Shown here: one piece after another, positions 22,733-38,371 of the stretch | Position numbering within the stretch: the stretch's first letter is position 1 | How the letters are laid out: every line of letters begins with the position of its first letter | Assembly (NCBI GenBank): GCA_950295325.1 | Contig: OX485804.1 | Span: 9,054,001-9,118,000, forward strand | Origin: Polytrichum commune | Taxonomy: Eukaryota > Streptophyta > Polytrichopsida > Polytrichales > Polytrichaceae | Length of the DNA stretch: 64,000 nucleotides | Reading direction: 5' to 3' | Position numbers and translations under genes: made by a program | Notes under the pieces: model-generated | Databases searched by the model: none | The model's input: the letters and a program-made list of their open reading frames with translations, nothing else | Told to the model about the DNA's origin: nothing

Positions 22733-22838
22733 TTCATAACATTACTCAGTTGATGAGTTGTGTTCATGGGCCTTGCAATAAATTCAAAAATAAAGCCTCC
22801 GAATGTTGGAATTTTAATGCTTCAAATAGAATGTGAAG
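22733..22838. mobile_element. Left half of a foldback MITE split by the MULE
   Basis: CATAACATTACTCAG...GATGAGTTGTGTT at 22735 is mirrored by AACACAACTCATCAG...AATGTTGTG at 38218-38249 on the far side of the MULE. Joined without the MULE and one target copy these make a hairpin element of about 150 bp, the probable insertion site. Confidence 0.65.
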
Positions 22839-22930
22839 GGGGGACGCTAAAGTACCCCATCGAACTTTTAGGGGGTAGGTCAAACCAAAAAACAGGTTGC
22901 CCGCCCCCCCACTCCGCTGACCAACCACGG
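22839..22930 (+). repeat. MULE left terminal inverted repeat
   Basis: Pairs with 38105-38197 through GAACTTTTAGGGGG, GGTCAAACCAAAAAACAGG and a C-rich block. Identity looks near 90 percent over the first 85 bases. Confidence 0.93.
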
Positions 22931-22944
22931 AAGGATGAAATAGA

Positions 22945-23066
22945 TGGAATGACGTGCCATGGTTTGGGTCACGTCATTCGAGGGTTTGGGACTTGTCGTT
23001 CGATGGTGTGGGTCTCATCATTGGAGGGTGTGGATCCTGCCATGGTTTAGGGTTGGTGTCATTCAT
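22945..23066. repeat. Subterminal GTCATTCG repeats (left end of MULE)
   Basis: Units of about 22 bp of the form GGTTTGGGTC-GTCATTCGA recur with drift: GAATGAC at 22948, GTCATTCG at 22973, GTCGTTCG at 22995, GTCATTCA at 23058. The same motif is present near the right end (38029, 38043, 38068). Confidence 0.7.
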
Positions 23067-25853
23067 GGCGATCCTTCACTCTCAAGTGGAAATCTTTCTC
23101 ATCATTGTGTTTTTTTGGTGAAGGACGTCAATGATTTGAGAGTGATTGTTGTAGGATCCGTGAGAGATTAGACATGTTAGGTGATGGTTTGGACAGTAGG
23201 GGTGAAATTGAGTGACAAATTAGATGTGCTTAGCTATTGAGTGTACCCGTATCCTTGCCATCTAGGGTTTCGAAACCAGATTTGCGAGCAGTGTGGTGTG
23301 TACCATACACAAGCACATAGGTGCGGTGGAGGCTCCGAGGTACTGGCGGTTGCTTGCCGTAGTTTCATTGTGTAAGCCCGGTCCAATTTGAAGGAGGTCC
23401 TTGAAGTCATCAGCAGGTGGCTCAATTTGAAGGGCTTCTCGAGGCGGATCTTGAGATTGCGTTGCTGCCGCTAATGTTGAGGAAGTTGCTGAGGCGTACT
23501 TTAGTTAACTACCTCGCGTACGTCCTACTACAGAGAGCATACTTTAGCAGCCTGCAGCAACATTCTACTCAGAAGCAACAAAGCATTTGTTGTCATTTGT
23601 CCATGTGCTGGACCTTCACAAACCTTTCAAATTACGAAGCAGGTTGTAACTTTTATGTTTCCTCTGCAATTTCTGCAGGATCCGGTAGTTCAGGCGCAAG
23701 AGAGAAAACCCTCATATGGTGGCGGCTTCTTTGACAAGGTATGTCATTCGCCTTGGGCAACTCAAGATGGCACTGCCTCCAAATATATGAATACCAACGA
23801 TAAGGTCAGAGTCCTATGGACAGAGGACAGGAGGATCCTTCAAAATCTCCCCGAAGGTGAGAGCAGATGTAATCGACATAGTACCCCGAACTTTGGTTGT
23901 CGCTTTGTCTCTTGTTGTCTGGAAGTCGCTTGCTAGTCAAACTGAGTGATTAGTTTTCCTTCATTGCTGTTGTGGAAGTGCTTCTCAGAATTTCTTTGTT
24001 CAGCTACCCTCAGCATGAAGTTCTTCACAAAGTGTCTGATGTTTTGCTGATGGAAGAGTGCACTCCTCTCCAGTTTTCTCAATCTCCATCTAAGTCTTGC
24101 AAAAAACTTAGTGAGGGAATTATATGTAGTCATTTTGATGACTTTTTTGAGAGCCTGGCGATGGTTGCAGGCATTTACTCCCAGGTTTGCTACTTGTCAT
24201 AATCGGTAAAACCTACTACATTAACTAAGTATCATTGCTTTCCCGTCTGTGAGCCTTAGGAGCAATCCATGTCAGGTGGGAAAAGTATCTGTGGGATGGG
24301 TTTTGGGCACCTTTTGGGTTGGTGGAGTTTTCAAGGAAGTTTCGGGAGTTTCTAAGCTGCCAGTTTTCCTGGCTGTGTTGTTTTGCCTAGGTTTTTTCCA
24401 GCTTGACACCATGATTCCAATAGTAGGGGTTGTCACACCTTCTCGGAGAATGTAGAATGGGAGGATGGAGAATGGAGAATGAGGAAAAAGAGGAGCCAAT
24501 AGGATAGCTTCTCCATGGAGAAAGGTGTGACACCCCTTTGTGGTCCGTGGAGAATGGAGAATGGGAATTACCATTTTGCCGTTCGCATGTGGTAAGAATT
24601 TGTGCTTTATTCACACGCTCGGATCATGCACTTTTTGTAGTGTGGATTTTTTATCAAAACTTTTACGGGAAGTTAGCTTCGTGCATGTGTGATCCGATTA
24701 GAAAGGGGATGATTTGTGAAAATTTTATCCATCATTTCATGTTGTAGTGTTCCACCCAAAATTTTGAAAATTTTAGTCTTAAAGTGCTCTTAAAAAAGTG
24801 AAGTACTAAAATTAAGCAATCAAAAAATCTCCAAAAATCACTACACTTAGAGTATTACATTCCAACCAAACACAACAAAATTTATTATTAGATTGTCAAT
24901 ATCTCATTCGTAATCATATTACAAAAAATTGTGTAATTTTAAGTTTAGGGTGTAATACAGAAATATTGGTAATAGCAATTGCAAATCTAACCATATGGAT
25001 AGAATCTAAAATGCATATTGTACAACTTTTATTCATTTATCAAGTTGATCTTATCCCTCTTAGTTGCATTTTATAATGCATCTTTGAAAAACTGCCAAAT
25101 CTGAAAAGGATGAGAACGTTTAGGAATTAAGGAAGGATTAAGGAAGGATGTTTGTTATGTTTTGTATGTTTTGTATGTAACATTGAGATCTTTTGGATCA
25201 TGCAATGATGTGCTAATAATAATGTAGTGCAAAAGTATAGTAAAATACATGTGTTTTTGAAATAGGATTATAATCTACATTTAAATTTTTCAAAAGTAAA
25301 AGTACTGAAATGCATGTTTGATACTTCATTAAAAAATATTATTGAAAATAGAGAAATATTAATATCAAAAATTGAATGCATATTTTAATAACATAAAAGA
25401 ATAATTTTGCAAAGTAAAAGAATAATTTCTGAAAGTAAAAATATTAAATTTTACTTAATCACTATATTCGTTAATTAGAGACTTTGGAAAGTCTCAAAAT
25501 CGATGCAAATGGTTGAATATCTAGTTCAATTTTTTATTGTGATGACATGTATTTGTGCCAAATTGGTTAGTGCGGCCCATGCAAATCACTTTATTAAGTT
25601 ACATTGAATATATTTCTTGTACTTTTCTTGTTTTTTATTTGAAACACTATGTTCTTAAATAGTCTCAAAATCATGAAAAAATCTTCGATTACCGAATATA
25701 GTGATACTTTGTAAAACAATTGGAGATACACTGTATATATTTCCCTTAAATATGTATTTTGGATCATTGTACATCATCGTTGGTTTCACTTGAAATACAT
25801 ATAATATATTAGATCCTTCATATTATTTGTCTTTGTTTTTTACAGTTGTAAAT
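23067..25853. other. MULE interior, no recognised gene
   Basis: Exon-like fragments occur on the plus strand, for example an open stretch ending near 23638 and GATCCGGTAGTTCAG after an acceptor at 23679, followed by a donor near 23740. A further open frame spans 23972-24185 (ending FESLAMVAGIYSQ before GTTTGC). They could be pieces of a captured host gene, but I do not recognise the family. At 24425-24540 GGGGTTGTCACACC and GGTGTGACACCCC form a short inverted-repeat unit. From 24750 to 25830 the sequence is AT-rich and empty. Confidence 0.4.
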
Positions 25854-27108
25854 ATGCCTTGTCGTAGTGAACGAGCTAAGGCTACTGAAGAACTTGAAAA
25901 TACTCTTGTAGCACGTATAGTGTTTAATTCTATGGGAATGATAGCTTCATGTACTGATTCGTCAAGTAGTGCTAGCAGTTCCTCTACTTTTGATAGTAGT
26001 GATGAGGGCCTCGACAATGTCTCTACATTATACAACTGCATCTTATCACAACGTTACTTTGCAGAGAAACATCATGAAATGGTAGATTCATCATGCATGC
26101 CTAATGATATACTTCGTATAAACCCTAATAGGTTTAGAGCAAGATTCAAGATATCATCCACAATATTCGACAAAATTTGGAATATGATCAATGACCATAA
26201 CATCTTCACTAATGTTAGCACTTCCACTCAATTCGATCCTAGGTTGCAGTTCCTAATTGTTTTATTTAGGTTTGGAGCCTATGGAACCGGCGCCTCCAGG
26301 GCAAATATTGCGGCATCATTTCATATATCCACTAGCGTTCTATTGAAGTTCACAAAACGCGTTATAGTTGCTCTTTTATCACTTGAAAAGAATGTCGTAT
26401 GTTGGCCCAATGCAGTGGAAAAAAAATCCATCAAACTCTCTATTCAAGAATCCCATGGATTTCCCAACGTCATCGGCATGATGGATGGTACTCATGTTAT
26501 ATTTGCTGCAAAACCAAGCTATCAAGGAGAACAATATTTCAACAGAAAAAAATGATACTCCATTTCATGTATGATCGTCAACGACCACAATTATAAAATA
26601 ACGCACCTACATGTAGGCTTCCCTGGCTCAGCTCATAATAGTCGTGTGTTTGTCAACTCACATATGGCTTCACCATGCTGATTTTTTCAAATCTCCTGAG
26701 TATATTCTAACAGAGACTGGCTATTCTCTCACTGCTATTACTCTACCACCATACAAGGTCCCTGCATCAAAGAAAAAAGAGAATCAACGTTTCAATAAAT
26801 ATCTCTCTTCTATTCGTGTGCGGTCCGAACATATCATTGGGCAACTGAAGGGGAGGTTTCAAAGCCTTCGTGGCAATCCTACAGTCATTTCAGGAAAGGG
26901 AATGCACACCCTTGTTATGCTTTGGATTCGGAGTTGTGCCGTTCTACACTTCCTACTCCTCGTGGATGGGTATGATTATTCAAATTGGGAAGGTGGAATC
27001 GAAGACCCAGACATGATTGTTTCCAATGAAACTCCAGAGGGAAATAACATAATACTTGGATATAACAATAGTTATGCGAGAAGCAAAAGAAAAATGATTA
27101 AAACATAG
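25854..27108 (+). pseudogene. PIF/Harbinger transposase (HARBI1-like, DDE_Tnp_4), broken
   Basis: The open frame from ATG 25854 runs to a TGA at 26553-26555. Its N-terminal part has a Ser-rich stretch and the helix-rich domain typical of plant PIF transposases, then GMMDGTHVIF with the first catalytic Asp, and NRKK before the stop. The same frame continues after the TGA with YSISCMIVNDHN and VGFPGSAHNSRVF, as in intact family members, then is lost by a frameshift near 26670-26690. The next frame gives YILTETGY, KVPASKKKENQRFN and RSEHIIGQLKGRF (catalytic Glu). The second catalytic Asp, normally in a DSGY context, is replaced in TETGY. One nonsense codon, one frameshift and one lost catalytic residue make this copy dead. 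Confidence 0.9.
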
Positions 27109-27523
27109 GTCTTGAAATATCATGGATATGGAATATGATGTACAAGTCTGTCACAAATATAGAGCTATATCATGTTCTAATATCAGCATAGTACACAAGT
27201 TCAACACAATACATGATGAAGGGTTCATGACTATCAACCTTTATGTAATAAACTCAAAGTTAATATTCTAGATAATTAAATGAATATTCAAAAGATGCTC
27301 ATATGACAAGTAGGAGAATCTATATGCTCATATCACCGCAGATTGTTTAAAAGTATCTCTCATGTTTTGATTGCATTTTTCCACCATGGGAGGATCAATT
27401 CGGGAATCAATTGGTAGTCATTGTCAGACTTACTGTTCAAAATTCATTACGCATTTGGATGAAAAATCGCTTAGTAAGTGACTGTAAATGCGATATTATA
27501 AATCTATAATGTACAAAAAAATT
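27109..27523. other. Spacer between convergent PIF transposase and Myb-like gene
   Basis: About 400 bp of AT-rich sequence separates the two convergent coding remnants. No gene or terminal inverted repeat was found. Confidence 0.5.
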
Positions 27524-28916
27524 TCATGACGTCTTAGCACGCAGTTTTTCAAGCTCAAACTGTAAAGCTAGTTTACTAATATGTGATTTCTCACGTTGCT
27601 TGTCTCTCCACATTAATTCCAAATCCAAACAGTGGTGTTCAAGAGCAAGCTGCTTATCTGATTGCTCTCGCAGGAATTGAAGTTTCTTTTGTTGATGTGC
27701 AGAATGCTTCTCTAACTTCTTCTCCATCAACACTCGGTTTTGCTCTTGCATATCTGCTATTGTTTCTTCTATTGATTTAAGTTTTTTCTTCTGCTCTTTC
27801 TGATGGCGACTGGGAGACAGTCTAGGCTACGTTCTCTCAGGTACAAAAGGTGCACCTGCACATCCAACAACCCAAAACTAAAAACATAAAAGAAAGTGAA
27901 AATATATGTTAAAATGTTGAAAGTCAATGTTCTACTTGTGACACATAGGAACTGATCGCACTGATTGGACAGAACAAGTGACTCCCTTAATGACCAAGTT
28001 CTAAAAAAACCAATTTGACTAATCATAAGAGGTGATACCTTAAAAATAAGCATATGGGATTGGCTCTGAACCCGGAACACTATCTTCTTCGAAATCTGTC
28101 TCTTCATCATCACTAAACTCATCTTCTTCATAATTACCATTGTCACCCTCCTTAATCATCGATTCATGAAATCCTTGCCCAATAGAGGTTCCAAATAATA
28201 ATTCCTCTGTGTTCTTAGTCATGCCGGTCTCACCAATGTATGGTGGATTAACAACAACACTCTCAGACATGATTGGTTTGACCCGAAAGTAAAATGGACA
28301 AATGAAGATAACCTTATCTCTAATTCTAGCAATCCCCAACTTTTCATTAGTAGTGGTTAATCCTTCACATGTGTTACACAAGTAATCTTCCGCCTCTTTG
28401 AATTTCTTCTCCACATACCTCATCTTGGATATTACATGTTCAGATGTTTTTTTTTGTATTCAAAGTGTCGAGGAAATTAGAAATGGTAACAATTATTGTT
28501 TTCTTGGTGAGCCCTGAGGTCCGCGTTCCTCCGCTTGCATTTCTGATACATGCCCCCTTCCACATCTCGTAGTTGCCTGACAACTCCAACCACTCAAACA
28601 GCTGTGCTTCCATATTTTCGGTCCATGTCTCGTACAATGTCTTCTGAGCTGACTCTTGTGATGCACTACCAACCTCGATGGAACGGGAGGTGGCAATGTC
28701 AGATGCTTGGGATGCCATCATAAGACTTTGCGTTTGGTTACATTGCTTCTTTCGTTGTGTGCATTGGGGGGATTGGGGTTGCGTTTCCAGAGGTCCCAAG
28801 TAATTTGCGGGATTCATCTGTATGACTGCAATGAACAATAATCTTACCTTCACAAACAGTAATCTCAATATCGAAAACAGTAATCTAATTTGCACCATTG
28901 AACCAAGAAAATCCAT
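27524..28916 (-). pseudogene. Myb/SANT-like DNA-binding protein, PIF ORF1 partner, broken
   Basis: Reading on the minus strand, 28916-28440 ends with a Myb/SANT-like domain (TENMEAQLFEWLELSGNYEMW, then GLTKKTIIVTISNFL). The frame shifts at an A8 run near 28448-28455; one base fewer would lead directly into SEHVISKMRYVEKKFKEA at 28440-28400. That second frame carries an IRDKVIFICPFYF and VVNPPYIGETG segment and an acidic tail (EEDEFSDDEETDFEED). A further 3' exon around 27830-27524, with one in-frame TAG, encodes a Lys/Glu/Gln-rich coiled coil (MQEQNRVLMEKKLEKHSAHQ). This architecture is the usual companion protein of plant PIF/Harbinger transposases, needed with the transposase for DNA binding. 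Its position, convergent with the transposase remnant, fits one decayed element. Confidence 0.8.
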
Positions 28917-28992
28917 GCTACCTTCTATATAGTGTTGATATTTTAACGTGCAAAGGATAAGAGGTTAGAGTTGGTTATAATCAGAAAAATTA

Positions 28993-29217
28993 ATGGTTCA
29001 TCTGGCCTTGACAGGAGTGCAGCAAGAGGAGAATGTTATGGTGGTTCATGGATTGGAGGTGCTTCAAAGTGAGCTGAAAATTTCTAAGAATGAGCTTCTT
29101 GAGACCACTGCACACTTGAAGCAGGCACAAGAAGGTATGAAAAACATGTCAACTTATTTGGCAGCAGTTTTGAAGATGGATTTTACAAAGCCCATGAGAG
29201 GAGATATTCATAAGTAG
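28993..29217 (+). other. Coiled-coil exon-like fragment, unrecognised
   Basis: An acceptor-like TTGACAG ends at about 29015 and is followed by an open frame to a stop at 29215-29217. It encodes a charged helix (LEVLQSELKISKNELLETTA) and a short tail MDFTKPMRGDIHK. It looks like the last exon of a longer gene; no upstream exon was found. A captured host fragment is possible. Confidence 0.35.
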
Positions 29218-29387
29218 CTGAAGTTCATATTGTTTGTGGATTACTTTTAATTGATTATTACAATTTTATGCTTGAATTTTAAGTTTGTGGACTTCTTTAA
29301 AGTTCTGTCCAGAATTATGAAAGTTATGGTCGGAGTTTGTGATGTATTTTGACTGTCATCATCCACTTACAAATGTTTGTAGCTCTG

Positions 29388-29915
29388 GAAATCATGTCTG
29401 AAATTGGTAGTCTTGATCTTAATGCTCGAATTTGAAGCAAGAGGTTAGGACTGAGGTTTTCCATGTTATCCTGTGATGAGCTTTTTAAATTCAATGATTT
29501 CATACCCAAGTCCCAAGAACTTGCTTAAGTCGTACCGTATAGCTGAGGTCCTCAAACACTCCTGCACATTCTCAGACAAATGTATTCAACAAGAATTACA
29601 ACGTATTTCCAATTCTTGCAAACTATGGAAACTACGACACAGATGCTCTGTTTCATGGCATAATGAATTTGATATTCATATGAGCTCCAGAAATTGTGAG
29701 GCAAATGTCTATGGGCACAAGGATTTGGAATTGGTAAACGTGTCAAACTAAGTTAATTGAGTGTTTCATATCCTACGAGAAGTGGGCGCTGAGACAAAAC
29801 TATCCAAATAACACATGTCTACCTTATCCAACTCACAATTCAACCTTTTAGGTGTTGCAACTACACAATACAGAAACAAAGAGCATGAAAATTGCAAACC
29901 CTATGTATGGTAAGC
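29388..29915. repeat. 528-bp direct duplication, copy 1
   Basis: Repeats at 30012-30539 (offset 624) with few differences. The shared block runs from GAAATCATGT to CCCTATGTATGGTAAGC. A diverged third copy of part of it is at 60401-60520. Confidence 0.92.
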
Positions 29916-30011
29916 TCTGGAAATCAAGCGACTGCAACACTACACATTATGGTCCCACCTGAATACTCTGAATCCCTCATTCATGCTTGTTCAAAACAAA
30001 TAGCTGCAATA

Positions 30012-30539
30012 GAAATCATGTTTGAAATTGGTAGTCTTGATCTTAAAGCTCGAATTTGAAGCAAAAGGTTAGGACTGAGGTTTTCCATGTTTTTCTGTGA
30101 TGAGCTTTTTAAATTCAATGATTGCATACCCAAGTCCCAGGAACTTGCTTAAGTCGTTCCGTATAGTTGAGGTCCTCAAACACTCCTGAACAATCTCAGA
30201 CAAATGTATTCAGCAAGAATAACAACGTATTTCCAGTTCTTGCAAACTATGGAAACCACGACACAGATGCTCTGTTTCATGGCATAATGAATCTGATATC
30301 CATAAGAGCTCCAGAAATTGTGAGGTAAATGTCTGTGGGCACAAGGATTTGGAATTGCTAAACGTGTCGAACTAAGTTAATTGAGTGTTTCATAACCTAC
30401 GAGAAGTGGGCGCTGAGATAAAACTATCCAAATAACATATGTCTACCTTATCCAACTCACAATTCAACCTTTTAGGTGTTGCAACTACACAATACAGAAA
30501 CAAAGAGCATGAAAATTGCAAACCCTATGTATGGTAAGC
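30012..30539. repeat. 528-bp direct duplication, copy 2
   Basis: Second copy of 29388-29915, separated from it by 96 bp. No coding content recognised. Confidence 0.92.
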
Positions 30540-31779
30540 ACTGATTCAATATTGCAGCTTGAAATCAATGTGAGGTCAGTGTTGATGATATATGAATCTA
30601 CATGTTTGTGATGTCAAATAATGCCGGATCGGCAATGCTGCAATATTTTTAGGGTTAGGCGCCCAATTCTCGAAATTTCAACCACCTTGTACCACCGTAA
30701 TTTAGAGGATAACAGGAATTTCTTCAATCCCGAAATTTGGAATCCACACAGATGAACTACTACTACCCACAACACCACGAAGCAAGGATGACATTCACAA
30801 GCAACTAAGCTAGTCCTCCGTGAAGCAGATATGAAGTTTTGAAGTTATGATGTCTTCAGAAGTCCAGTGAGCGACTGCTCCAAAACTGCAACTCCTTAAA
30901 CTGGAACCCATATATTTTGCATGAGGACAAAAAGCAAGAAATCTAAGTTATAGCTCCTCCTTCATGGTCAACCCTCACAAAATGAAAAACCCACCACTGG
31001 ATTGCAACCAAACATGAGAACTCCACTTACAAATAGATGCGAAAAGGATATGACAAACCTCCAAGAAGGAAAACACTTGAAGTTGAGGGAAGACCACTTG
31101 CACAGAAATCACAGAAATGAACTAAAGCCCCGCCGCCAGGTGAAAGAAGTGGGAGAATGGTGAAAAACAGTAAAACTTCAAAGAAAGAGGTAGGAGCTCT
31201 TCTTCTTCTTTTTCTTCTTCTTCTTCTTTTGTTTTTTTTCCCCTCTTTCACTCTCTCACCTCTCATCACCTTCAACAAAGCCAAGCCAAAGCCAAGCGAG
31301 CCCCATGCACTCAAAACCCGCCTCAGGCCATTGCCTGGAGATTGGAGTGGAACTAATTAACTTATGCAAGCTTCTTGAGGTCTTTTGGAAGACCGACATT
31401 CATACATGTTTACACACAAATATGCGTGCTCGATTTGTGACTCGACTTCAGAGTTGTTTAATTTCCTATTTGGGAAACTGCTAATCAGGTGCATGATCTA
31501 TCGAGGATTTTGGTACACACAATGATTACATAAGCAAGTTTGAGGAATCCAAAATGCACGAGGTTCTGATGAGTTTAGTGTTATGATAATTGCAGGCTTC
31601 ATAGTTGATTCAACGTTTGAGAGTGTTGTGTTGCTCGAGGTAAGTGTGGGGACAATCAAACCACATAACAGGTGCCTGCAATTTGAGTTCATGTTATTGA
31701 TGTTGATAATTGAGATGATTGTAATCTTGTATAACTGGAACTTGTGGTGCTGGTGAGTTCATGCAGTATTTTGCTGGAT
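30540..31779. other. MULE interior, non-coding
   Basis: No gene recognised. A CTT-rich tract at 31197-31250 produces Leu/Phe or Lys/Arg homopolymer frames that are not real proteins. Confidence 0.55.
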
Positions 31780-32935
31780 ATGGCGCCAACTGTTGGAGCA
31801 AAGGTGTCTTTGACACCTGCAAGGCTTGTTGTAGAGGCTTTAGATCATGGTTTGCACGTGGTCGAGGATCCTCCAATGATTAAGCTCCTTGGTCGTACAA
31901 AGTTTGTGGAGCTTGTCGTTTTTGGTGTTCTTGGTTGGCAGGAAAGGGTGAGAACTTTGAACTTTTCCTTCACATTCAATCTTGCATCATTTCCAACGTT
32001 CCCGACTTGTTTAGTCTGCAAGGTTTAGGGTCTATGTCTTTCTCTCCTCCTCTCATTCGGGCAAGGCAAGTATGAGCAAGTTTGTACATTCTCCTCACAT
32101 ATAGGCTTCAAATGTTTACCGTGGGAATAAATGGCATGTGTCTAGAATATCCAAACAAATCCTTTAATGTTTGAATGACAGTCCCTGAATGACAATACTT
32201 GAATGACATGATGATAGTCTATGTCATTCAATTTAAATTATTATCTTCTTATATGATTTTGTTATTATGACAGTTGTTCGCAGGACAACGTGTTTTTAGG
32301 TCCACTATGATACACAATAGAAAACCTTCTATAGCATTATTCTTGGAAGCAGAGTACGAGGCGCTCACGCTTGAGGCTTATTGGGAGTCTAGAGTGATTA
32401 CCACGAGGTTGGTTAATGGCAGACATCCATTCTCTTGTGTACACTGTAAAGAAACACACATATCGAAGAACACGACATCTTATCATAGAATGCTCAACAT
32501 GTGTAAGGTATACAAGGGTCTTGGAGTGTTGAAGATGTATCCATCGTGGGAGAAAAGCAACCACGGAGAGGTTTATAGGATTGCTAAGAAATATGGGAAG
32601 ATGTATCAGTCTAGCGTAGTGTGCAAGCCACCTACACTGCTGAAGAGGAAGGCAACAAATATCATTGACATTCCCCCTTGAAACACCGCAATATAGCTGT
32701 GAAGGCAGCCCCCAAACCTCCAAAGTCACCGTCCCACAACAAACCAAAGCGGAAGGTGAAGTGTATCCCTCAATGTGTGAGGTTTGAAAAACATAAAAAA
32801 TGACATGACTCTGAAGGACATGGCGATAGTGAAGAATTTGCGGATGTGAGCTCCGAAGACTATTCTAATTCGCATTCACCAAGAGAAGCCAATAATGAGG
32901 CTATGTCCGCGGTTGCACCTCTAATTTCTAAATAA
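31780..32935 (+). pseudogene. MULE-borne gene with BED-like zinc finger, unrecognised, frame broken
   Basis: Exon 1 (ATG 31780 to 31947, donor GTGAGA) joins in phase 0 to exon 2 from 32274 after TTATGACAG. The product begins MAPTVGAKVSLTPARLVVEA and is about 190 aa to a TGA at 32679-32681. Exon 2 holds FSCVHCKETHISKNTTSYH with HRMLNMC, a CX2C...HX5C arrangement resembling a BED zinc finger of transposon proteins. Just before the stop a C5 run breaks the frame; a neighbouring frame continues with a Lys/Pro-rich, NLS-like stretch (NKPKRKVK) and an acidic Ser-rich tail to 32935, with another stop at 32799-32801. I do not recognise the family. It could encode a DNA-binding accessory protein of this MULE. 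The intron carries four copies of the GAATGAC motif. Confidence 0.5.
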
Positions 32936-33909
32936 TTGGAGTACATTAGTCTGGGCACATTGTCCAATGAAGAGGTTTTCCATGTGGTCAGACATCCCAA
33001 ACATTCAAAGCGTGTCATTCAGCATGACACCACATGCAATCTCACTCGTAAAGAGGTTGAGAAACAGACGTGGCGGAAGGCCAAACTTATGTTTCCTGAT
33101 GGCTACTTTAGAAACATTCATTTCCCACACCATTGTTGAAATCAACGGAATATACATCCTCATTACTGAGGCGTTGTCCAATAGATGCCTAAAGAACTCG
33201 TTGAAGACCCTCAATATTGCATAGATCACTTGTATAAGATGTTAGAAGACGGGATCATTGGCTCAGGGGGGGGGGGTAGTCATTGGTTGGAGTAGCAATA
33301 TACGTGCGAACAAATGATAAGGTATTTTAAAAACATGGGAGCAAAAAATATAATTGGGCGTAAGAGTAATATAGGGTATCAAAAATGGCACTGGACATCT
33401 TTAAAGTACTATAGGGTATGGAATAATAGGTAATTTGAAATTATAAGTAATGCAAGCCATTTTTCTATTAATCCAAAGTAGAAATTTACATAATGATAGC
33501 ATGTGAAAAAAAAAATTGAAAGTAATACCCCCTTATAAAATAGTGGTTGTTCGCACCTATATCCTTAACTTTTTAACACACTGCCCCCTCCCCGAGATCA
33601 TTGGGAAAAAAATTAGCAACGCATTTGGCCAATGGTATCTATACGGAAATCTAGTAAGATCAACATATGTCAATACATGTTACTTGTTTTTATGTTTCAT
33701 TCTTGTAATACGTGGTTTGTATTGAGGATTACATGGATTTGACTTGTGAATATCATTGTTTTACATTAAATAATATATCAATTTGAACTTTGAATGACAA
33801 GGTTTTGTGTTGAGGATGACAAAACTTTGATACGATAATCAAATATTTTGCATCAAGGTTGATATAGCTTTGAATTCCTAATGACATGGTTATAGTTGGG
33901 ATTTGTAGG
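32936..33909. other. MULE interior, one unexplained open frame
   Basis: The plus frame 32936-33139 (SNEEVFHVVRHPKHSKRVIQ) is charged and could be a further exon of the neighbouring gene. A G9 run at 33266-33274 follows. The remainder is AT-rich. Confidence 0.35.
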
Positions 33910-34745
33910 GTCCTCGCACTCCAAAAGAGCACAAGACGCTCATTAAAAGAATAAATGAGTAGATGCGATGCTTCAATAGTAACTTTGATATACAGAGGTT
34001 TGATGAGCTCATGCATTTGAAGGATTACCACAACCTCAGAATCACGTTCAGGGCGTACGAAGCTAAGCTAGCTGCCGCAAACAAAGATGTAGAAGAACTA
34101 CGCAAAAAATTTGTCCATGATAAACTCAACAAGCTCAATGTTGCTGAAAAAATACGTACAGAACATAAAAGGTGGGCGTGGTCCCCGGTGTTTTGCATAC
34201 TTAAGGAATGGTCTCTCTCTGATTTCCACGGCTATCCATGGGAACACACGGAACATGAGTGGTTAGAAATAGAGAGAATTTTATTGTCACAAGTATACTC
34301 TAAACCATGTTTAATTGAGGTTGAATGTCCCCATATTCTCAAAGTTTTGTTGATCTTAAATCGGATATTGGATGGTCACAACAGTTCTCTTGTCCATCCT
34401 TAGAGAGGTTTGACATTGACAAATATTCTTCACATTGCTCGGGATAAAATAAAATCTGTAATTTTGACTAATATTATGCACAATTTATCAACTATGGGTT
34501 GGACATTGTTTCCGCGTATTCATACAACATGTGGCACCTTTAGCAATTTGTATTCAGAGATATTTGCTCTGCTTGGTTACGATGTGGATAAATATGCCGG
34601 AGTCGTGGAGAAAGTCAGGGCCTTCATTGGTAGGATTGCACATCGAGCACTCGCCGATATGGTGAAAATGCATCGATCTTCCGAGGTCGTTGATATGTGG
34701 CATTCGGCGGACGTCCCGAACCAACGAAAACCTAGATGTGAAGAA
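33910..34745 (+). pseudogene. MULE-borne unknown gene, interrupted by two TAG codons
   Basis: An acceptor-like TTTGTAG precedes GGTCCTCGCACTCC at 33909-33910. One frame is open from there to a donor GTATGT at 34746 except for TAG at 33959-33961 and 34401-34403. The roughly 278-codon product has a coiled-coil segment (AYEAKLAAANKDVEELRKK) followed by a Trp-rich part (WAWSPVFCILKEWSLSDFHG) and a helical C-terminal half (LYSEIFALLGYDVDKYAG). No family recognised. Because the frame is otherwise clean over 830 bp, the sequence was recently coding. Both TAG could derive from CAG. Confidence 0.5.
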
Positions 34746-35184
34746 GTATGTAGTTATTCTATACATTTGATTGTAAAAATATACTCATATATTGTTTGAT
34801 TGGAATGGTATTAAAGTTTATTTATTTGACTTGCATGTATTATTTTTTGTCCTCGTCATGCGTGAAGACATGGACATTGGATAATTGATCATGAACGACC
34901 TCTAAAGAAAAAAAACATTGTATACAGATCAGATTAGGTAAAACAGTCAATATCATGTTTGCCTTAAGACAAACAAAATTCAGTCTTATTTAATGTGAGT
35001 TTGGCTTGGAGGAGCCCACTGGTGACATCGCACTGGATGTGCCAAACACATTGTCATTAATGGATAATTCCCAAAAATGCGTCAATTCCTTTATGTGACG
35101 AAGCCACAAGATTATGTAGAATGAGTGCAAGAGGCAATGAGCTTAGACGATCTTAAGAATATCCCGTTATTTTCCTAAAAATAT

Positions 35185-35664
35185 ATGGATTGTTTCGACA
35201 TTCATGATTTATGCCTCACGCAGCTCCAGAATGATCTCCAAAAAAATTCTTTGAAGTTTTTTACGTCTTCGACGCCCTTATTTCTTGATGACATACTATG
35301 TACGATGCAGTCTACGAAGTCATGGACTCCCACAAAACTATACAATGAGTCAAGCAAAGGATCTTGGTTTGCAAGAATTTTGGCCCTGACTCTTGCCATT
35401 GGGCATCCCGAGTCCAGAACAACAACTTCACCACCACGTAAATTAGAGTTGGGCAGCATGACGAATATTGGTTATGCACAAGAAAACTCTTTGATGTTCG
35501 ACAACAACGTGAGTGTGAAGAAGACTGAAGACATGAAGAACAACACTTCAAGAGACGCCACATTCGAATCGTTTTCAGTCATGCCCCCGTGTTCGATCAT
35601 TTCTGAGGTGATCGAAGGACATAGGAAAAAAAACCAAGAAAAAAAAAAACCTCGTCGTACTTGA
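35185..35664 (+). CDS. Unknown ORF in MULE, possible last exon
   Basis: A 159-codon open frame with a hydrophobic N-terminal half (ILALTLAIGHP region) and a basic tail (RKKNQEKKKPRRT) that could be a nuclear localisation signal. It lies 440 bp downstream of the preceding exon-like block on the same strand and may be its continuation. No recognised domain. Confidence 0.35.
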   Translation: MDCFDIHDLCLTQLQNDLQKNSLKFFTSSTPLFLDDILCTMQSTKSWTPTKLYNESSKGSWFARILALTLAIGHPESRTTTSPPRKLELGSMTNIGYAQENSLMFDNNVSVKKTEDMKNNTSRDATFESFSVMPPCSIISEVIEGHRKKNQEKKKPRRT

Positions 35665-36640
35665 TGTGGAAGGACAAGACTGTAGATGATATCATATCTT
35701 GAACAACTCACAAGTGTGATAGAAGATAAATTATCTAGCACATTAATTTTGTAATAATTCACATTTTGTTCATGACTACTTGTATAAATCATTCACCTAT
35801 ATGTCATGTCATTCAATGTTGATAGTCATCTCGAGTTATTCAAGGATTCACAATATGATTCACTTGGTATATCAATTAATCAATCATATAATATATGTAA
35901 TTCGTACTTGTAGTCATGTGGTAATCATTACATATTGTCATTAAACCGGTGTGACATTCAAATGTTCCATTACTTGTGATTGTGATGTTATTTATGATTG
36001 TGAAGATACTAATTCCAAGTCCTCTTGTGATTCATACAATAGTCATATGGTTATTAAATGATTTGGATATTTTGTCATTCAATATTGTACTTTAGTTATC
36101 AACTATGTAGTTATGTACAACATGATGTTGTACATCATGGTCAATGAAGTGTTATGTGATTTTTTACTGGATTTAGACCATTTAGATAATAACAAAGGCA
36201 TTAATGTGAAGAACATGACTAACAATGTAAAGGACATTGTACTCAATACATATATATAGTATGTTGAAGGACTCTATGATTTAATATGAAACGTGTTGCT
36301 AATTTGAATAAATAGGTGGATTCAATGTAGATATTCCATACAAGTTACAATATAATAATATATCTATAAAAATGACGTACATATCAAAACATACATCTGT
36401 TAATGACATTAATGCTTAAGTGTGGGTTTTTTTTTCTTCTTAGGAAAAACTGTCTCCAGGAAGCCTCGATGGCGCTTGAGAGAGTTGTCATCGTCTCTCT
36501 ATTTGGGAACGATGATGTGGTGGATGTAGTATGGAACATTGCGACGCCACGTGCAATCAATTATTTATGTTTGCCTCTAATGTGCTTCAAATCAGCAAGC
36601 AAGTAAGGATGAAGTGACAGAAAAATTTATTCGTTATTTG
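35665..36640. other. MULE interior, AT-rich
   Basis: No coding region. GTCATTCA motifs occur at about 35808 and 36076. Confidence 0.5.
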
Positions 36641-37713
36641 TCAATGATGTGTATATACTATGAATCGTTGCTTGCGATGCAATCTGGGAGCTTGTGGGTC
36701 GTCTTGTAACAATTCATCTAGGTTGGAAACATCGTTCAGAGATATATGAGATCCTATATCATTATAATCTATAGAATTGAGATGGCCATATCCACCCACA
36801 TCACCAATGGTTTGAACGTGTAGTTCCAAAATTTTATGTGATTCATTGTCATTCATTGCATAGATATGTTGTCCGAGATGTTCGTCGCATCGTCGTACAT
36901 GTGCGCGCGTGGAATAATATTGGGACATGATAGTATCACGATCAACACCGTGTAGTGTACTAGCCTCCCTAACTATGACATTGTCTTCGATGTCGGGGTG
37001 GAGCATCTTGAACACCTTCACCGTATGCTTGCATATCATGTCTTCACGTGCGACGGGACAGTCGCATTGTGGCCACTCAAAGTTAGGTGAGTGTATCGTC
37101 CACATTTTAGGATTGTTATTCACTGAGCTAACATATGTTTTGTCCTCATCCATACAAATCAAAACATTTGTATCATGGATTGTTGATGGACGTATAATTG
37201 CAGAACAAACAATGCCCTCATATTTTTTTGTTCTTCACAAACCCAAAAGCCTTGCATTGGACTTCGTACCAATAATGTGTGTGTACATCACCAGTGAGAT
37301 AATAGATAAGTCAATCCATGCGCCTTCCAACGAACCACTCTTCTGTAGAATTGAGGATGCTTTTGACGTTTGAGTGGTACGATTCAATGACAGCGTTTGT
37401 GTTTTGTCCAGCATGAGCTATCCTCTTCGCCCCCACGTACCACATTGATGCCTTAGCTCTCCATGTGTCATTCATGTACTTCATGAATGAAGCTAAACGT
37501 GGCCTTGTGTTCGCAATCACGTCTTGTTGCTGAAGAACCCAATCAACTGGATCATCATCGATGTCACAACATTTTCCATACATGTTATCCCCGACCATGT
37601 GCCAGAATAATGCTGACTTGTTGTCCACAGAATGTCATTGGGTCAGTGAATTCCAAGGCATCCAGTGGTACATGCAGTCCTCCATTGGGAAAAGGTTGCG
37701 AGCTTGAAGCCAT
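36641..37713 (-). pseudogene. MULE transposase with SWIM zinc finger, core deleted
   Basis: An ATG at 37713 starts MASSSQPFPNGGLHVPLDAL, which runs only about 28 codons before the frame changes near 37630. The next frame (37628-37311) is the post-catalytic part of a MULE transposase: WVLQQQDVIANTRPRLASF, MWYVGAKRIAHAGQNTNAV and IESYHSNVKSILNS. A TGA replaces the expected Trp in MDWLIYYLTGDV, then a one-base shift in an A7 run near 37226-37232, then the SWIM finger CDCPVAREDMICKH (CXC...CXH) at about 37060-37020. The C-terminus ends at 36641. The DDE catalytic core and N-terminal zinc-binding region expected between start and tail are missing, so an internal deletion is likely. Position next to the right terminal repeat is as expected for a mudrA-type gene transcribed inward. 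Confidence 0.85.
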
Positions 37714-37740
37714 TGCAATTTCTAAACTAAATGATGTGCA

Positions 37741-37766
37741 ACCCTAAAACCCTAAAACCCTAAACC
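37741..37766. promoter_or_regulatory. Telo-box-like ACCCTAAAACCCTAAA cluster
   Basis: Three CCCTAAA units with an extra A lie 28-53 bp upstream of the ATG of the MULE transposase remnant. In plants such telo-boxes are promoter elements of genes active in dividing cells. A regulatory role here is inference; it is too short to be telomeric DNA. Confidence 0.45.
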
Positions 37767-38104
37767 ACACACTTCAACAACATATGTGTATGTCCAATCT
37801 GTCATCAACCAGATGCGCCTATCACTATTGTATGTTTTGATAGATGGTGTTGCAACATTAACTATGGTGTCATTCGCCCAACAAGAGTGTGTGCACAAAC
37901 CAGGAGGATCACAACATGGAACTATGGAGCCTTAAACACAAAATTGACAAATGAGCACCTAGTGTAACCTAACTCTCAGATCTTAGATCCCATATCCGAT
38001 TATTGCGGCATGACGAATTACATGTCCTGAATGACGCGAATGTGAATGACATCCGCCTGTGTTATACGTCGTTCACGATGGATGGAATAGTGACATCCAT
38101 GTCC

Positions 38105-38197
38105 GTTGATGACGTCAGCGGCGTTGGGGGGCAGGCAACCTGTTTTTTGGTTTGACCTGCCCCCTAAAAGTTCGATGGGGGTACTTTAACGTCCCCC
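38105..38197 (-). repeat. MULE right terminal inverted repeat
   Basis: Inverse of 22839-22930, ending GTCCCCC at 38197, followed by the target copy AATGTGAAG at 38198-38206. Confidence 0.93.
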
Positions 38198-38206
38198 AAT
38201 GTGAAG

Positions 38207-38249
38207 TCATGACAACTAAACACAACTCATCAGCTAAATAATGTTGTGT
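38207..38249. mobile_element. Right half of the foldback MITE split by the MULE
   Basis: AACACAACTCATCAGCTAAAT at about 38218 pairs with the left half at 22735-22765. See the left half entry for the reconstruction. Confidence 0.6.
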
Positions 38250-38371
38250 TCGTTATGTGGACCCTGGGAATATAATCAAGAGATGACTCACATTCGGATT
38301 GAGCTTCCAACATCCCATGGTTATATTCTCACACCCCACATAACAAATGCACGACGTTGATTAATGTTATG
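38237..38371. mobile_element. Foldback MITE (GAATATAACCATGGGATG family)
   Basis: Arms TTATGTGGACCCTGGGAATA and TATTCTCACACCCCACATAA face each other. The same terminal pattern forms the element at 56876-57055 and resembles the arms at 22735. It overlaps the end of the split MITE. Confidence 0.7.

Follow-up and report, generated by a model that had tools for sequence, protein, structure and literature searches.

The stretch analysed here (64,000 nucleotides of the moss Polytrichum commune, contig OX485804.1, positions 9,054,001 to 9,118,000; hereafter the window, whose own numbering is used for features) holds at 22839-38197 a Mutator-like element (MULE) of 15.4 kb, with the same boundaries as in the first-pass annotation of this DNA. 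It is very probably a two-gene MULE of the type with terminal inverted repeats (TIRs), one gene for a transposase and the other for a Ulp1/C48-type protease, which has decayed by deletions and been enlarged by captured fragments and nested insertions; such decay and enlargement are an ordinary fate for MULEs. Its ends, target-site duplication (TSD) and target, a miniature inverted-repeat transposable element (MITE), are:

22735-22838, no strand: left part of the target MITE of ~147 bp, from the joined-flank search; inverted repeat I2
22830-22838, no strand: left TSD copy, AATGTGAAG, 9 bp, a perfect match to the right copy
22839-22931, plus strand: left TIR, 86 of 96 alignment columns identical to the right end
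38102-38197, minus strand: right TIR, matching the family end pattern and the left end
38198-38206, no strand: right TSD copy, AATGTGAAG, 9 bp, a perfect match to the left copy
38207-38250, no strand: right part of the target MITE (outer limit approximate), from the joined-flank search; inverted repeat

The two 9-bp copies directly flank the termini GGGGGACG...CGTCCCCC, and a given 9-mer is computed to match by chance with a probability of 3.8e-6. The TIRs align over about 95 bp (93 nt against 96 nt), with an ungapped core of 67 nt that is 94% complementary, so that the inverted ends of about 90 bp and the perfect 9-bp duplication originally proposed are both borne out. A 30-nt end motif, with up to 3 mismatches allowed, matched the window once, at the right end (maximum in 100 shuffles, 0); the left end was missed by this pattern because of a one-base gap.

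The insertion site can be read from paralogous empty copies elsewhere in the genome (a 408-Mb assembly of 64 contigs). When 250 bases of each flank were joined with a single AATGTGAAG, at least 38 other loci gave matches that bridge the junction, 133-170 bases long and 79-85% identical; this is a lower bound, 40 of 915 candidates having been scored, and the locus's own two halves were also matched. Query and target matches are equal in length to within a few bases, and those loci therefore have no element-sized DNA at the junction; they belong to a ~147-bp repeat whose halves are inverted. Since these empty sites span the junction, the borders at 22839 and 38197 are those of one insertion: the MULE landed within a copy of the ~147-bp MITE. 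Neither the Rfam scan nor the tRNA scan found a match in the window.

Within the element, the two genes are convergent, the transposase read from the right end and the protease from the left end, and both are now remnants:

32271-35646, plus strand: Ulp1/C48-type protein, broken N-terminal exons N1, N2 and N3 (zinc-finger-like), by tblastn to the exons of relative L027, 26-61% identity
35809-35823, no strand: protease deletion joint, the C48 catalytic domain (0.9-1.4 kb) gone from between imperfect 13-bp direct repeats, by comparison with C2:11264170 (L001-3) and L006
36454-37619, minus strand: MULE-type transposase, C-terminal (SWIM-like) part, broken frames, by tblastn to L027; transposase match row C2:9090671-9091318
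37600-37601, no strand: transposase deletion joint, the 5' part including the DDE exons (1.8-2.9 kb) gone, by comparison with the C7 copy described below and L017

Neither the first transposase exons, nor the catalytic middle exon, nor the C48 catalytic domain had a tblastn match in the window at E 1e-5. This copy is now non-autonomous; its ends look usable, and it could therefore at most be mobilised in trans by the transposase of a relative. A side observation in the right arm is three copies of a telomere-like unit, AACCCTAA, at 37740-37764.

The lost parts of the protease can be followed in relatives. The Peptidase_C48 domain scores above its Pfam cut-off in L027, L028, L029 and L030, and a genome-wide search for this family gave 51 matches, all above cut-off. 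The L027 domain finds its best PDB match in a Ulp1-like SUMO protease (E 1.2e-4), and all four relatives keep an H, D, Q and C at positions which we take to be the catalytic ones of Ulp1. Preceding the domain is an N-terminal region of ~900 aa without a Pfam match: DUF1985 and DUF287 were unmatched in the exons scanned from L027 (three), L028 (two), L029 (one) and L030 (two), at maximum E values of 1 and 0.1.

Among the 62 best of 149 C48 rows, compared with 111 of 130 transposase rows, 55 have a transposase row no more than 6 kb away and in every case convergent, where chance would give 0.2; the other 7 have none of the listed transposase rows within that distance. Ratios of nonsynonymous to synonymous substitution (dN/dS) among L027, L028 and L029 are 0.20-0.27 for C48 and 0.16-0.18 for the transposase exon, from three of the ten pairs per gene (the other seven had dS above 1.2 or were saturated), and both genes thus appear to be under constraint. 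Because of this convergent pairing, and of the apparent constraint on both genes, the protease can be assigned on sequence grounds to the element kind, as its second gene. Alternatively, the C48 region could be a host gene captured once, as passive cargo of the Pack-MULE sort, and foreign to the element kind: passively captured host fragments do occur in this copy, and Ulp1 domains in MULEs are treated as transduplicated in PMC2528002 and PMC13317346. With convergent transposase rows beside 55 of the 62 best C48 rows, and constraint indicated for both genes, such a capture is very improbable and was rejected. An ancient capture of C48, long since retained, is possible. The content that the first-pass annotation called "several non-MULE coding remnants" has four sources: host-gene fragments, a Harbinger-type element and a MITE (below), and the MULE kind's own C48 gene, which is the main coding remnant.

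That the two genes can travel together is shown by sister copies with ends GGCAGACG, one on C3 (12.4 kb) and one on C1 (11.97 kb), on different chromosomes. They share 99% identity along a stretch of 9.2 kb and 95-98% in smaller pieces, and parts of them do not match; both have open transposase and C48 exons, and they are flanked by different perfect 9-bp duplications, CCTTCCTCC and GGCTTGGAC. A third sister copy, on C2, was fetched in part and is there about 97% identical to both. Near-identity, possession of both genes and separate duplications together show that a two-gene unit of ~12 kb moved as one piece.

The family sharing this element's own ends was traced with a 38-nt end pattern, which at up to 3 mismatches occurs 35 times in the genome, while the reversed control has 0 matches. 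In 24 of the 35 the ends face each other as 12 pairs, at distances of 0.2-11.8 kb, and one further match is the window's right end; other loci with both termini in this configuration, which the first-pass annotation had named as a check on its interpretation, are thus present. The flanks of five of the 12 pairs were read: C7:19875358-19887118 (11.76 kb) and C5:43658702 (2.7 kb) have exact 9-bp duplications, that of C2:55299008 matches at 8 of 9 positions, and those of C1:45270573 and C1:61231149 are similar, with borders slipped or 8-bp. Among other large copies with these same ends, only the C7 copy has a proven duplication. One arm of the element recurs in relatives:

22839-23352, plus strand: left arm common to five fetched relatives, 79-82% identical over ~510 bp in L001-3, L007, L008 and L009, and in two pieces in L010

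The nearest relative, C2:11264170 (L001-3), also shares the interior order of the element. It carries an insert of its own, ~13 kb with CACTA-type coding remnants (Transposase_21, E 2.5e-42; DUF4216, E 1.8e-7), at C2:11264738-11277867 (L001:839-10000 plus L002:1-3968), whose flanking points lie only 0.9 kb apart in the window. In L011 (C5:36560000-36568500), a 301-aa open reading frame at 2021-2923 matches NLI-interacting-factor-like phosphatase (PF03031, E 1.3e-6), about 4.7 kb inward of a right end of this MULE family.

The remaining contents of the element are captured and inserted DNA:

23424-24298, plus strand: mosaic of captured host-gene fragments in shuffled order, from a SCAMP-like gene, an ABC-2 transporter locus and a DnaJ locus
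24301-24424, plus strand: fragment homologous to C1:61984593-61984716 (90%, sequence match), left half
24426-31179, plus strand: nested Harbinger-type element of ~6.75 kb with left end GGGGTTGTCACACC, from the DDE_Tnp_4 match, the recurrent left end and the related copies L014-L016; border from L018
31180-31458, plus strand: fragment homologous to the C1:61984 locus (81%), right half, split off by the Harbinger-type element
33262-33595, no strand: nested MITE of 334 bp, with the 9-bp duplication GATCATTGG at 33253-33261 and 33596-33604; absent from C2:11264170

The captured pieces are 88-97% identical to their sources: a gene which we take to be SCAMP-like (a Pfam scan of it gave no match), and two loci that encode an ABC-2 type transporter domain and a DnaJ domain, respectively. 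C2:11264170 shares the last DnaJ piece together with its 5' junction, so that this capture is older than the split from that relative, the piece having been carried along since. No other locus holding pieces from two of the captured sources was found (23 matches, 18 of 18 candidates scored).

In the Harbinger-type element, transposase remnants lie at 25794-27108, with a DDE_Tnp_4 match above cut-off in 26617-27105 (E 8.7e-11), and its left end, with 2 mismatches or fewer, is seen in 56 places (control, 0). Because its right end and duplication were not found, its right limit was set at the border given by the empty site: at C1:61984250-61984716 the fragment that it splits runs on almost without a break, about 40 bp being absent from the junction. 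The block 24290-31560, of which the Harbinger-type element makes up most, is absent from C2:11264170. A 300-bp direct repeat (D1) was considered as a pair of long terminal repeats (LTRs) and rejected, each copy starting within a stretch common to the Harbinger-type relatives L014 and L016. At 30284-30614, two stretches of ~165 bp resemble each other's neighbours and have matches of 74-80% at many loci, as a dispersed tandem-repeat unit would. The 334-bp MITE has at least 22 other loci at 91-98% identity, and looks recently active.

Without its two nested elements, the copy measures 8,262 bases; with the deleted parts restored it would come to roughly 11-12.5 kb, near the 11.8-12.4 kb of large relatives with 9-bp duplications, an agreement that is rough because the C7 copy lacks a match to protease exons N2 and N3. 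The description of this MULE as unusually large is not supported. The generalisation that MULEs usually span a few kb fails for coding MULEs, given these relatives and the grapevine families of up to 17.7 kb in Table 4 of PMC2528002. A further side observation concerns the genome at large, which has three LEAFY-type loci, at C1:40571425, C1:62298386 and C7:8635861. Most plants have one or two such loci, fewer than three. A LEAFY exon of this genome scores 202 bits against 4bhk, a moss protein, and 182 against 2vy1, the LEAFY of Arabidopsis, while lacking two residues that are diagnostic for mosses; judged by this single gene, the host is probably no flowering plant.

In the sequence of events favoured here, a two-gene TIR-type MULE inserted into the ~147-bp MITE, with the 9-bp duplication now seen at the locus as the result, presumably through cut-and-paste transposition by the family's transposase. 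Units of ~12 kb with both genes move as one piece, as the sister copies did; in this copy, internal deletions removed the transposase's 5' part and the protease's catalytic domain, and growth came from the nested ~6.75-kb Harbinger-type element and the 334-bp MITE, whether before or after landing. The C48 protein may have had an anti-silencing or SUMO-directed role. Movement as a single unit with cargo and growth by nested insertion, offered at first as alternatives, each hold for a different part: joint movement for the transposase/C48 pair, nesting for the Harbinger-type element and the MITE, both absent from C2:11264170.

It is instead conceivable, and on balance unlikely, that the whole 15.4-kb configuration, with Harbinger-type element, MITE and deletions included, transposed here as one unit. 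The ends and the 9-bp duplication look undecayed, and a relative acting in trans would make an own transposase unnecessary; against this, the junction between MULE and Harbinger-type element is spanned by one of 42 matches, which is the element itself (40 of 65 candidates scored), and neither deletion joint recurs in the relatives listed, whose matches break at these points. A search that supplied part of these relatives scored 39 of 5690 candidates, so that a second copy is possible. Full-length copies with the same cargo had been suggested as support for joint mobility; among the matches listed, no second copy of the 15.4-kb arrangement was seen, and the unit shown to move is the ~12-kb two-gene kind. 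Many short non-autonomous copies carry the same ends, and the two ends might in principle come from two separate smaller elements with an accidental match of the flanking 9-mers. The empty sites with joined flanks (at least 38) refute such unrelated ends, provided that these MITE copies have been read correctly, and also against it are the 3.8e-6 chance of the 9-mer match and the interior order common to C2:11264170; this alternative is extremely improbable, and was rejected.

The interpretation as a decayed and enlarged two-gene MULE has several points against it. The profile PF10551 matches the transposase middle exon of a sister copy at E 2.1e-5 and 25.3 bits, below the curated cut-off of 27.6, and the SWIM profile reaches 13.7 bits in sister copies, below its cut-off of 19.6. 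The C7 copy has N instead of the catalytic D, and its protease exons N2 and N3 are unmatched by tblastn, so that none of the copies seen combines two intact genes with exactly these ends; the family in which joint movement of transposase and C48 is shown is a sister one, whose ends are related but not the same. The family end pattern found no right end in C2:11264170, and for the Harbinger-type element neither a right end within 3 mismatches nor a duplication was found.

Ulp1 domains have been described in MULEs of Arabidopsis, maize, rice, melon, hydra and lancelet (PMC2836005), and ULP1-bearing TIR MULE families of grapevine reach 16.2 kb, with one MULE family at 17.7 kb (PMC2528002). Close by description are grapevine Mutavine-3, -4 and -18, TIR MULEs of 7.1-16.2 kb with a ULP1-like region downstream of the transposase and a 9-nt duplication where seen (PMC2528002); the moss element differs from them in host, in its long protease N-terminus without a Pfam match and in the loss of the catalytic domain. 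The Arabidopsis KI-MULE (Kaonashi) resembles it in having the Ulp1-type domain reversed relative to the transposase (PMC2528002, PMC13317346, PMC6117577), but KI-MULEs are described as non-TIR, and with inverted ends of ~95 bp the element is therefore like, but not, a KI-MULE. VANDAL elements also have a second large gene, the anti-silencing gene VANC, beside the transposase (PMC5735166), in some cases with a Ulp1 domain (PMC13317346), unlike the moss protease in that the N-terminal exons scanned here match neither DUF1985 nor DUF287. With Pack-MULEs it shares captured, rearranged host-gene fragments between MULE ends (PMC13317346), differing in its own transposase and protease remnants. In maize and rice, over a third of candidate coding MULEs have nested insertions (PMC3903597); those of the moss element are a DNA transposon of Harbinger type and a MITE, and not LTR retrotransposons.

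Ulp1-carrying MULEs are thus already known; modestly new are the host, a non-flowering land plant, and the long protease N-terminus without a Pfam match. Among the papers listed for fern, liverwort or moss terms (15 of 292, 12 of 19 and 12 of 27), no title or abstract opening dealt with Ulp1/C48 MULEs in those plants. A 2026 review places Ulp1 domain capture in non-TIR MULEs at the monocot/eudicot split (PMC13317346). Tentatively, a clade of TIR MULEs in a non-flowering land plant may have kept a constrained, convergent Ulp1/C48 gene with a ~900-aa N-terminus of no known domain, in a partnership older than or independent of that capture, its protein acting as an anti-silencing or SUMO-directed factor; we regard this combined proposal as possible rather than probable.

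The element displays the make-up of a very large MULE, a two-gene unit with captured fragments and nested insertions, each separable by paralogous comparison. The apparently constrained C48 gene, at dozens of loci paired with a transposase, would offer a system for asking, outside the flowering plants, why transposons retain a SUMO-protease-like gene.

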